Part shown: in pieces, positions 24,678 to 27,140 of the stretch
How the letters are laid out: every line of letters begins with the position of its first letter
Position numbering within the stretch: the first letter of the stretch is position 1
DNA from: Marinactinospora thermotolerans DSM 45154
GTDB taxonomy: Bacteria; Actinomycetota; Actinomycetes; Streptosporangiales; Streptosporangiaceae
Direction: 5' to 3'
Length of the DNA stretch: 64,000 bases
Assembly (NCBI RefSeq): GCF_900167435.1
Contig: NZ_FUWS01000005.1
Coordinates: 282,893-346,892, forward strand
Translations under genes and position numbers: made by a program
Notes under the pieces: model-generated
The model's input: the letters and a program-made list of their open reading frames with translations, nothing else
Databases searched by the model: none
Told to the model about the DNA's origin: nothing

Positions 24678-25478
24678 TCACGCGCCTACCGTGACCGCCC
24701 AGTGCTGGCCGTCGGGGTCGGTGAAGTATCCGACGTAGTCCCCCTGCCCGGTCCGCGCCTCCGCCGTGACGACCCGCCCGCCGGCGGGCTCCACGGCCTT
24801 GAGGAGGGTGATGGCGTCCTCGCGGGAGGCGGCGACGTGGGTGAGGACGACGGCCGGGAAGCCGTGGCCGCGCTCGTCGACGCCGGCGTCCTTGGCGAGG
24901 GCCGGGCGGGGCAGCAGACCCAGGCGGCACACGCCGTCGGTGACGGTGAAGTCGACGAACTTGTCCCCGTAGTCCCGGTCGACGTCCATGCCCAGCGCCT
25001 CGTAGAAGAGCTTGGCCGCCTTGGGCCGTGTGACGCCGAGGTAGGCCGCGGTCTCGGTCAGCCGCACCGGCGCATCGGAGGGCCTGGTGTCCTTCTTGGC
25101 GGCCGCGGCCAGCTTCCACACCGCCCCGTCCGGCGCCCGGTAGACCGAGGTGAACTCGCCGAAGATCCGCTTCTTCGCCGGTCTGACGACCGTCGCGCCG
25201 TTGGCGGTGGCGGCGTCGAGGAGGGTTCCGACCTCGCCGGGCTGGTCGACGATGACAGACAGGACGCAACCACGGAAACCTGACGTGTCCGGGCTCATGC
25301 CGGCGTCGGCGGCGAGCGCGTCGATTTGGCGCAGGAGGAGGCGTCCGGTGCCGTGCAGGTCCAGGCCGGCATCCTGTCCGTCGCCGATGGCCGTGGGTGA
25401 GAACACCGTGGTGTAGAAGGCGTGGGCGGCCTCCACGTGAGGCACGCCGAGGGCGATGGCGTCGAGTGAAAGCGCCAT
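24678..25478 (-). CDS. Two-domain VOC (glyoxalase/bleomycin-resistance fold) protein
   Basis: 266 residues made of two VOC modules: about 1-125 (LDAIALGVPHVEAAHAFYTT ... APDGAVWKLA) and about 140-266 (AAYLGVTRPKAAKLFYEALG ... FTDPDGQHWAVTVGA). The paired betaalphabetabetabeta units make a metal pocket in this superfamily; the substrate is unknown. ATG 25478, 61 bases after the upstream VOC stop, so probably one operon with it. Part of a cassette with an AraC regulator. Confidence 0.85.
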   Translation of the reverse strand: MALSLDAIALGVPHVEAAHAFYTTVFSPTAIGDGQDAGLDLHGTGRLLLRQIDALAADAGMSPDTSGFRGCVLSVIVDQPGEVGTLLDAATANGATVVRPAKKRIFGEFTSVYRAPDGAVWKLAAAAKKDTRPSDAPVRLTETAAYLGVTRPKAAKLFYEALGMDVDRDYGDKFVDFTVTDGVCRLGLLPRPALAKDAGVDERGHGFPAVVLTHVAASREDAITLLKAVEPAGGRVVTAEARTGQGDYVGYFTDPDGQHWAVTVGA

Positions 25479-25539: not shown

Positions 25540-25950
25540 TCAGGCGAGCTGGTTGACGCGGACGAGATTGCCGGCCGGATCGCGGAAGGCGCAGTCGCGG
25601 ACCCCGTAGCCCTGGTCGATGGGTTCTTGGACCACGTCCACGCCGGCGGCCGTCAACCGTTCGAAGAGGCCGTCGAGGTCGTCGGTGGCCAGGGTGATCG
25701 CGGTGTAGGTGCCCTTCGCGATCAGCTCCAGGATGGTGCGGCGCTCGTCCTCGGTGACGCCGGGGTCGGCGGCCGGCGGGTGCAGCACGATGGAGGTCCC
25801 GGGCTGTCCGACCGGTCCGACGGTGATCCAGCGCATGTCCTCGTAGCCGACGTCCTTGCGGACCTCGAATCCGAGGATGTCGCGATAGAAGGTCAGGGCG
25901 GCCTCGGCGTCGGTGTGCGGGAGGAAGGCGTGGTGAATGGTGATCTCCAT
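25540..25950 (-). CDS. Single-domain VOC protein, probably AraC-controlled
   Basis: 136-residue VOC protein (HHAFLPHTDAEAALTFYRDI ... CAFRDPAGNLVRVNQLA). No enzyme activity can be assigned. ATG 25950 has no Shine-Dalgarno sequence; instead TAGCGT ends 7 bases before it, so the mRNA is probably leaderless. Its promoter overlaps the last codons of the AraC gene upstream and carries an 18-bp element also found at the DUF1801 gene. VOC genes beside this AraC type are a repeated actinobacterial pairing. Confidence 0.85.
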   Translation of the reverse strand: MEITIHHAFLPHTDAEAALTFYRDILGFEVRKDVGYEDMRWITVGPVGQPGTSIVLHPPAADPGVTEDERRTILELIAKGTYTAITLATDDLDGLFERLTAAGVDVVQEPIDQGYGVRDCAFRDPAGNLVRVNQLA

Positions 25951-25956
25951 GCCCCT

Positions 25957-26001
25957 CACGCTAGACGTGGCTACCGGACGCGCGCTTCTTGATTCCTGAC
26001 C
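25957..26001 (-). promoter_or_regulatory. VOC-operon promoter with 18-bp conserved element
   Basis: On the minus strand GGTCAGGAATCAAGAAGC (26001-25984) is followed after exactly 19 bases by CTAGCGTG (25964-25957), which contains the -10 TAGCGT. The same layout is repeated at 26578-26622. It is a candidate AraC-activator site and lies inside the 3' end of the AraC coding sequence. Confidence 0.7.
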
Positions 26002-26405
26002 GGTCTGGTCACCTGCTTGGCCAGGCAGGGCGGGATGCCCGCCGCCGCCTGCGCGTGGTCGCGGCGGTAGACGCTCGGGGGCACGCCGACCAGCTCGGTG
26101 AACCTCGTGCTGAAGGTGCCCAGCGAGGACGAGCCCACCGCGAAGCAGACCTCGGTGACGCTGAGGTCCCCGCGGCGCAGCAGCGTCATCGCCCGCTCGA
26201 TCCGCCGGGTCATCAGGTAGGAGTACGGCGACTCGCCGTAGATGCGGCGGAACTCCCTGCTCAGGTGGCCGACCGACATGTGCGCGCCGCGGGCCAGCGC
26301 CTCGACGTTCAAGGGTTTGGCGTACTCGCGGTCGATCCGGTCACGGACCCGCCGGATGACCGCGATGTCGCGCAACCGCTGTTCCTCAGCGCGCCTGTTA
26401 GCCAT
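25971..26405 (-). CDS. AraC-family transcription regulator (DNA-binding domain only)
   Basis: 144 residues with the two helix-turn-helix motifs of AraC/XylS proteins (VEALARGAHMSVGHLSREFR and VTEVCFAVGSSSLGTFSTRF) and the end motif GVPPSVYRR. There is no N-terminal ligand domain. A short C-terminal extension ends RPVRNQEARVR. Start ATG 26405; in-frame ATGs just upstream (26414, 26417) are possible. Flanked by two inverted copies of an 18-bp element, it probably activates the VOC operon to one side and the DUF1801 gene to the other. Confidence 0.88.
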   Translation of the reverse strand: MANRRAEEQRLRDIAVIRRVRDRIDREYAKPLNVEALARGAHMSVGHLSREFRRIYGESPYSYLMTRRIERAMTLLRRGDLSVTEVCFAVGSSSLGTFSTRFTELVGVPPSVYRRDHAQAAAGIPPCLAKQVTRPVRNQEARVR

Positions 26406-26577
26406 GGGTGCCATCATCCCACGCCTCGTCCCGGCCCGCCGGTCACGCGCCCATCCGGAAGGATGCGGCGGGTCCCGGTCGCGGAGCCCCGGTCCACGTC
26501 GCGCGGCGGTTCGGATCGGGCGGGCGCTCTCCCGCGTCCTCGTCGAGGACGCCACGGGCTTGGGAAGGGCCTCTGGT

Positions 26578-26622
26578 GGTCAGGAATCAAGAAGCACCGG
26601 CCGTCCCGGCGGGGCTAGCGTG
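26578..26622 (+). promoter_or_regulatory. DUF1801-gene promoter with the same 18-bp element
   Basis: GGTCAGGAATCAAGAAGC (26578-26595), then 19 bases, then CTAGCGTG (26615-26622). Element, spacing and -10 are identical to those before the VOC gene, while the 19-base spacer differs. Confidence 0.7.
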
Positions 26623-26666: not shown

Positions 26667-27140
26667 ATGGGCGTGGACACCGAGGGACAGAACGGTAAGC
26701 GGCCGGAGGGTTTCTCCGAGCAGGAGCGTGCCGCCATGAGGGAACGCGCGGCGGAGCTGAAGAGGGAGACGGCCCGCGGACGTGGCGGCAGAGCCGCCGC
26801 TGGCGAACTCGACGTGCTGGCGAAGATCGCCGAGATGGAGCCGCCCGACCGCGCGGTGGCCGAACGTGTCCACGCCATCGTCACCGGCACCGCCCCGGAG
26901 CTGACGCCGAAACTGTGGTACGGGCAGCCGGCCTATGCCCGGAAGGGGAAGGTGGTCTGCTTCTTCCGGAGCGGCGGGGTCGACAAGGAGCGCTACTCGA
27001 CGTTCGGGTTCACCACCGAGGCGGGCCTCGACGACCCCAGCGGGCTGTGGCCGACCTCCTACGCCGTGACCGAACTGACCGAGAAGGCCGAGGAGACGAT
27101 CGCCGCCCTCGTCGAACGCGCCGTGAGCCGAGTCCCGTGA
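26667..27140 (+). CDS. DUF1801 (YdhG/iron-chaperone-like) protein
   Basis: Cytosolic protein of 157 residues. A charged N-terminal helix (EQERAAMRERAAELKRE) precedes the DUF1801 fold (DRAVAERVHAIVTGTAPELT, then PKLWYGQPAYARKGKVVCFF). Members relate to frataxin-like or YdeI-type proteins; the function is unsettled. ATG 26667 has AGGAGGAGG upstream. The transcript should start near 26628 from the element-bearing promoter. Confidence 0.85.
   Translation: MGVDTEGQNGKRPEGFSEQERAAMRERAAELKRETARGRGGRAAAGELDVLAKIAEMEPPDRAVAERVHAIVTGTAPELTPKLWYGQPAYARKGKVVCFFRSGGVDKERYSTFGFTTEAGLDDPSGLWPTSYAVTELTEKAEETIAALVERAVSRVP

Follow-up and report, generated by a model that had tools for sequence, protein, structure and literature searches.

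A conserved 18-bp element as the probable operator of a single-domain, MarA-like AraC-type regulator in actinobacteria

The window analysed here, a stretch of 64,000 nucleotides from Marinactinospora thermotolerans DSM 45154, carries on its minus strand a gene for a single-domain AraC-type regulator of 146 aa (25971-26411), a putative class II activator. On the same strand lie the genes for a 136-aa VOC (glyoxalase/bleomycin-resistance superfamily) protein (25540-25950; Pfam PF00903) and for a second, 266-aa VOC protein assigned with Pfam (24678-25478), which from gene order and strand presumably belongs to the same operon. A gene for a 157-aa DUF1801 protein (26667-27140; Pfam PF08818) lies divergently on the plus strand. 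When the 64 kb were scanned, GGTCAGGAATCAAGAAGC was found in two exact copies, at 26001-25984 (minus) and 26578-26595 (plus), as the putative operators of the VOC and DUF1801 promoters, respectively, with the AraC gene between them. There were no further matches at up to three mismatches in the 64 kb, and 100 dinucleotide shuffles of the window gave 0 matches at this threshold, which excludes chance for the two 18-mers. Downstream of each copy, at a distance of exactly 19 bp, lies CTAGCGTG with the −10 box TAGCGT, at 25964-25957 (minus) for the VOC promoter and at 26615-26622 (plus), as read from the sequence, for the DUF1801 promoter. The first element and its box are kept in relatives, and elements precede DUF1801 genes in other loci as well. 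The two 19-bp spacers are unrelated, i.e., identical by eye at 6 of 19 positions, and copy 1 also codes for the residues VRNQEA of the AraC C-terminus (...VTRPVRNQEARVR*). Thus, the first-pass annotation had described this arrangement correctly, in the positions of the 18-mers and their boxes, in the unrelated spacers, and in the AraC gene whose 3' end contains the first copy, as confirmed by its translation.

The ATG of the VOC gene (25950) lies 7 nt past TAGCGT and 6 nt past the 8-nt box, so that the promoter appears leaderless by geometry. If this ATG is taken as +1, the element spans −34 to −51, with its centre at −42.5. The ATG of the DUF1801 gene (26667) is 44 nt past the −10 box, suggesting that this transcript has a leader. 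By eye, no TTGACA-like −35 hexamer was evident 17 bp from the −10. A third site was found on another contig of the same genome (G000:C32:33816-33799; locus L003, 1501-1518, minus), with one mismatch to the R-consensus, followed by N19, CTAGCGTG and an ATG at leaderless distance. The 82-aa ORF behind this site gave no Pfam match at E 0.001.

The 146-aa regulator belongs to the AraC/XylS family, as it matched PF12833 (E 1.2e-22, 80.4 bits, cut-off 33.6) and PF00165 (49 bits, cut-off 26.6), and no other Pfam domain was found in it. In its AlphaFold model, seven helices are predicted, AraC-type chains align within residues 1-124, and residues 132-146 have pLDDT values below 50, a tail predicted to be disordered. 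The protein is therefore a DNA-binding domain with two helix-turn-helix motifs alone. Its sequence matches in the PDB were RamA, AdpA, Rob, MarA and SoxS. An orthologue of MarA, SoxS, Rob or RamA was rejected, since the NCBIfam equivalog scores were all far under the cut-offs (RamA 53.1 of 180, Rob 37.4 of 380, SoxS 37.7 of 174 and MarA 26.9 of 202 bits).

We then analysed the spacing in loci L001-L208 only, which had been chosen without regard to a −10 box and hold 152 sites within one mismatch of the element. A CTAGCGT-like box (up to two mismatches) was found 17-20 bp away at 136 of these sites, and the other 16 sites have none. With the threshold lowered to one mismatch, 115 sites had the box, with a spacing of 19 bp in 82 cases and of 18 bp in the other 33, while random positions in the same loci reached one mismatch in 56 of 20,000 cases and two mismatches in 910 of 20,000. 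In sequence terms, the element is thus an asymmetric site in fixed orientation over the −35 place. At 76 sites without an AraC match in at least 400 nt of upstream sequence, the element positions are conserved at 0.89-1.0, except position 2 at 0.68 (G or A), compared with 0.34-0.58 upstream of it between −20 and −4. Conservation at the three adjoining bases is 0.70, 0.62 and 0.91, so that the element may in fact be 19-21 bp long. Spacers of 19 bp show mild preferences of 0.40-0.79, also at non-AraC sites, indicating that the promoters are not wholly independent or that the spacer matters. A faint CCGGTCA-like repeat in the spacer is not claimed as a second site, as the window spacers have no clear copy by eye. 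A start codon (ATG or GTG) follows 6 nt past the box at 53 of 69 AraC-end sites and 41 of 79 others, and DUF1801 promoters are mostly leadered (in 12 of 17, an ATG is absent from the interval 3-9 nt past the box).

To describe the distribution of the element, we searched genome samples with one genome per species; as the kinship of genomes inflates both the co-occurrence and the Mantel statistics, the p-values below are measures of association only. Among 60 related genomes, GGTCAGGAATCRAGAAGC with up to two mismatches occurred at 103 places in 44 genomes (reversed pattern, 7 places), and homologues of the AraC protein in 58 (E 0.001). When 296 genomes drawn from across the phylum were searched, GRTCAGGAATCRAGAAGC was present, allowing one mismatch, at 74 places in 48 genomes (reversed pattern, 3 places), and AraC homologues at E ≤1e-45 in 53 genomes. 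Of the 48 element-bearing genomes, 46 also have the AraC protein (Fisher p = 7.6e-44, 296 genomes). In one of the two exceptions (G236) the site has no −10 box, and in the other (G301) AraC tail sequence precedes the element, but the contig ends 28 bases away and cuts it off. Genomes with a site away from an AraC 3' end, sorted by hand, hold the protein in 20 of 22 cases (p = 6.5e-15), and the exceptions are again G236 and G301. Conversely, seven genomes have an AraC match at E ≤1e-45 without an element at up to one mismatch. Five of these (G107, G218, G303, G304 and G314) have a more diverged site near the AraC gene (L174, L169, L168, L172 and L175), the AraC gene match in G239 is only partial, and no element was found near the AraC gene of G249 (L167). 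A scan of titled records gave at least 118 stretches with the element; among the 80 matches listed, all but two are actinobacteria by name (Streptomyces, Micromonospora, Nocardioides, Cellulomonas, Blastococcus, Actinomadura and others), the remaining names being a Thermomicrobiales MAG and a record flagged as unverified Bacillus. The contig labelled as a Thermomicrobiales (Chloroflexota) MAG (L246) carries the AraC gene together with the element, by transfer or through misbinning of the contig.

The genes behind the element were assigned by tblastn against representatives that had themselves been assigned with Pfam and NCBIfam. Sites were collected with a seed filter at up to two mismatches, those sharing the same 60 bases were merged, and 29 of 313 sites without a −10 within two mismatches were dropped before counting. 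At the remaining 284 sites, a set that takes in loci chosen by CTAGCGTG at 18-19 bp, the next gene encodes a VOC protein in 230 cases, DUF1801 in 21, a UvrA-like protein in 15 (the representative being a fragment cut by the locus end, with 237.8 of 729.8 bits, under the curated UvrA cut-off), a deazaflavin (F420)-dependent reductase in four, and a DoxX-like and an AraC protein in one each, with 12 left without assignment. At 76 element-ascertained sites without AraC upstream, the corresponding numbers are VOC 42, DUF1801 15, UvrA-like 7, reductase 3, DoxX-like 1 and 8 without assignment. The targets form a coherent set. UvrA-like genes often lie behind a VOC gene on the same strand (L133, L198, L208, L273 and L282), which suggests a VOC/UvrA-like operon. 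By eye, a small membrane-type protein, with HRW near its start and then LPLLPL...SGLY-like stretches, recurs behind the element in L069, L126, L248, L251 and L309, five of the 12 cases without assignment; the 65-aa protein of L309 had no Pfam match. Neighbouring copies of the element in divergent orientation, each before a gene, were observed in L087 (1271/1280; VOC/DoxX-like), L056 (1518/1564; VOC/DUF1801) and L069 (1216/1334; DUF1801/membrane protein).

At the AraC genes themselves, the element is embedded in the coding sequence in most cases, being read in the same frame, as VRNREA-like residues, at 144 of 148 AraC-end sites. The AraC stop codon falls within the −10 box at 138 of the 148 (CTAGCG-TGA at 99, C-TAG-CGTG at 39) and within the spacer, as in the window, at five. 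For loci L001-L208 alone, which were not chosen by the box, the stop codon is in the box at 62 of 69 sites. The codons used in the element were counted in homologues found by protein or coordinates, with loci taken by number range (65, of which 43 have a recognisable tail), and are AGG in 42 of 43, AAT in 35 of 43 and GAA in 42 of 43. Elsewhere in these AraC genes, the same codons make up 2.1%, 7.6% and 12.2%, respectively, of those for their amino acid, a count based on sites chosen by the exact element, which would be circular for the element codons and was hence used outside the element only. Moreover, 127 sites with at least 400 nt of upstream sequence have no AraC match there. This set was reached from 136 sites without an AraC match in up to 600 nt upstream by removing nine with less than 400 nt (e.g., L205, L269, L277 and L314), where an AraC gene may be cut off.

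Several loci depart from this layout. The order is inverted in L009, L032/L116 (one locus) and L318, with the VOC gene before the AraC gene; there the element stands in front of the VOC gene (with three mismatches in L032), and the AraC tails read VRRRPA, VRSRVS and IRSHQA. In L242 and L174 the element follows the AraC stop codon by 26 and 234 nt, respectively, and in L273 it is read in another frame. L007 and L031/L117 have no VOC1 orthologue following on the available strand, and their element lacks a −10 or is decayed. The VOC1 gene follows AraC without an element between them in L226 and L282, where a nearby element serves a VOC3/UvrA-like unit, and with a weaker, diverged element and then an ATATAAT box in L208. 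The first-pass annotation had regarded operator and C-terminus as locked together. The overlap is indeed the usual state, as the AraC-end sites attest, but it is not obligatory, since after rearrangement the element is still found at the VOC gene and the AraC tail is altered. Because it is broken where the VOC gene lies elsewhere, the overlap is better described as a by-product of gene order than as a lock.

We also compared the AraC proteins with their elements. A site downstream of the own gene was recognisable in 160 of 173 distinct homologues (116 of 122 at ≥73% identity, 43 of 50 at 55-73% and the single one below), at least two of which (L031 and L318) are poor matches. The downstream search found no site for the other 13, and L009 and L032 have it elsewhere. 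In the 116 orthologues at ≥73% identity, the element and −10 lie at or after the gene end, usually then followed by a VOC gene. In less similar homologues, the element varies in its middle and at its 5' end (for example, GAGCAGGATCGGAGAAGC), and CAGG and GAGAAGC are mostly kept, a retention that is partly built in, as the search required those letters within two mismatches. GAGC-type sites are borne by 11 homologues of 54-65% identity at or near their own 3' ends. Overall, protein and element distances are correlated (Mantel r = 0.60; 0 of 2000 permutations as high). Genome descent alone does not explain the variants in paralogues, since G048 and G055 each have paralogues that bear their own different elements. 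A search of the 60 genomes with the variant pattern gave eight places (reversed, 0), seven of which coincide with or closely follow the 3' end of a gene for an AraC homologue; the remaining one (G053) lies elsewhere, in a genome that has a diverged AraC homologue. In the recognition helix, residue 48 is Gly in 135 of 135 canonical and 14 of 14 intermediate proteins, while the GAG-type proteins have Ala or Ser there (11 of 11), and residues 47, 50, 99 and 102 also differ between element classes. Lack of enrichment near this AraC family in other genomes had been named beforehand as the outcome that would speak against the proposal. Instead, the enrichment is strong, as seen in the genome co-occurrence, the 18-19 bp spacing, the VOC and DUF1801 targets, and the variant elements accompanied by variant AraC proteins. 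The two-promoter mini-regulon proposed at first should be replaced by a regulon that comprises several families of targets and is found repeatedly among actinobacteria.

On these grounds we consider it probable (about 0.85) that the single-domain AraC protein encoded next to the 18-mer uses it as an asymmetric operator and acts as a MarA-like class II activator of VOC, DUF1801, UvrA-like and F420-dependent reductase genes, with binding and activation inferred. The protein would bind the 18-mer, probably as a monomer through its two helix-turn-helix motifs, so that the bound site covers the place of the −35 hexamer, 18-19 bp from the CTAGCGT −10 box. From there it would activate, in class II fashion like MarA, SoxS and RamA, and switch on the four kinds of target genes. 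The VOC promoter of the home locus falls within the activator gene or at its 3' end, and the −10 box usually contains the stop codon of the activator. We infer the monomeric state and a detoxification purpose of the regulon. The assignment as a MarA-like class II activator is suggested by the geometry with the centre at −42.5, by the sequence and fold matches to RamA, AdpA, Rob, MarA and SoxS, and by the lack of an evident −35. MarA-type class II sites are described in forward orientation over the −35 in passages of PMC6900184 and PMC12052159, and RamA at micF is placed at about −41 in a passage of PMC8811837.

An element over the −35 place would suit a blocker too, and the AraC protein could bind it as a repressor that keeps RNA polymerase out until a signal releases it, as some AraC-type proteins repress at some promoters. 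We regard this as unlikely, since a blocker has no need of a spacing fixed at 18-19 bp from the −10, no further Pfam domain for a releasing ligand was found in the protein, and inspection by eye showed no consensus −35 with which the promoter could work unaided; geometry and the absent −35 favour activation over repression. Still less probable is that another regulator or an alternative (ECF-type) sigma factor reads the element and that the AraC gene is merely a linked target, even though linkage alone cannot prove the binder and GGAAT resembles an ECF −35 motif. In ECF sigma promoters, a GGAAC-like −35 motif stands about 16-17 nt from the −10. At both window promoters, the distance from GGAAT to TAGCGT is 28 nt, too far for a −35/−10 pair, and the ECF promoter was rejected on this gap. 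By eye, no sigma factor gene was recognised among the ORFs at 22-30 kb, four of which were searched with Pfam. Against any other reader speak the variant elements, all eight of which occur in genomes with a diverged AraC homologue and seven at or just after that gene, as well as the recognition helices, which differ by element class.

The shared reading frame at the AraC-end sites could also mean that the conservation is a coding effect, in which the peptide VRNREA at the C-terminus is what counts and the DNA match simply follows. We give this hardly any weight. The rare codons, the 127 sites without an AraC match, the tail predicted to be disordered, and the loss of the peptide in the rearranged loci all indicate that the DNA, and not the peptide, is conserved, and a coding-only explanation was rejected for these reasons.

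As to how such a regulon could grow, we tentatively put forward, as a possibility less likely than not, that it does so by copying of the activator's own 3' end before other genes. Since operator, spacer, −10 box and stop codon form a compact, portable promoter, duplication of the tail before another gene would recruit that gene at once. The AraC-tail consensus was found with at least 70% identity over 15 nt (−18 to −4) at 16 of the 127 non-AraC sites vs 2 of 6350 shuffles, and tail peptides are readable in L089 (SSCVAKQVTRP, before a UvrA-like gene) and L094 (EGMPACVTKQVARP, before a VOC5-type gene). Seven of the 16 tail-like sites precede VOC1 genes, for which duplication of the whole unit with loss of the AraC body explains the finding at least as well; the remaining nine lie before VOC3, VOC5 or UvrA-like genes or before genes left without assignment. 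AraC 3'-end remnants (e.g., CVAKQVTRP) were noticed before non-AraC sites in L089, L094, L071, L043 and others.

Taken together, the results point to a widespread, apparently undescribed gene set under one MarA-like activator in actinobacteria. In titles and starts of abstracts of open-licence papers, no description of this regulon was found, although this scope makes the absence weak evidence. With TCAGGAATC as the search string, the matches listed were unrelated by title, and longer stretches gave none in the open-licence papers. Passages of PMC10763038 name, among the LmbU candidates in Streptomyces lincolnensis, one AraC gene and one VOC gene, as separate entries and without a link to this element.

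If the proposal is true, actinobacteria would have a regulon of the MarA kind whose operator is sharp and searchable, and a regulator and a testable condition would become attached to orphan VOC, DUF1801, UvrA-like and F420-reductase genes. Some families among these have links to drug resistance. Because the operator varies naturally along with helix residues 47, 48, 50, 99 and 102, AraC-type specificity would become directly testable, and a promoter within the final codons of the activator, whose stop codon is mostly in the −10 box, is an unusually compact layout.

Among known systems, AdpA of Streptomyces likewise has an AraC-type DNA-binding domain, to which the predicted model of the present protein can be fitted (3w6v, Z 15.1, 111 aligned, rmsd 2.2). 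In AdpA, this domain is joined to a further one at the N-terminus, and its site is degenerate, whereas the present protein is the DNA-binding domain alone. SiwR of mycobacteria, described in PMC10693628 as a WYL-domain activator of genotoxic-stress genes, resembles the present case as an actinobacterial activator of adjacent genes under stress but belongs to another protein family, not AraC. The closest likeness is offered by MarA, SoxS, Rob and RamA with the marbox in enterobacteria, described in passages of PMC6900184, PMC12052159 and PMC8811837 as AraC-type proteins with two helix-turn-helix motifs, small and monomeric for MarA and RamA, acting at an asymmetric, oriented site over the −35 place, with regulons tied to drug resistance and stress. 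The predicted model also matches the fold of MarA (1bl0, Z 13.2, 107 aligned, rmsd 2.7). The marbox, given in PMC6900184 as 5'-GCAHWWWWTGYYAAA-3', differs in sequence, and the present element is much less degenerate. While efflux and porin genes are named as targets of MarA, here they are VOC, DUF1801, UvrA-like and F420 reductase genes, and, unlike in the MarA systems, the VOC promoters appear leaderless by geometry and the operator usually lies inside the activator gene.
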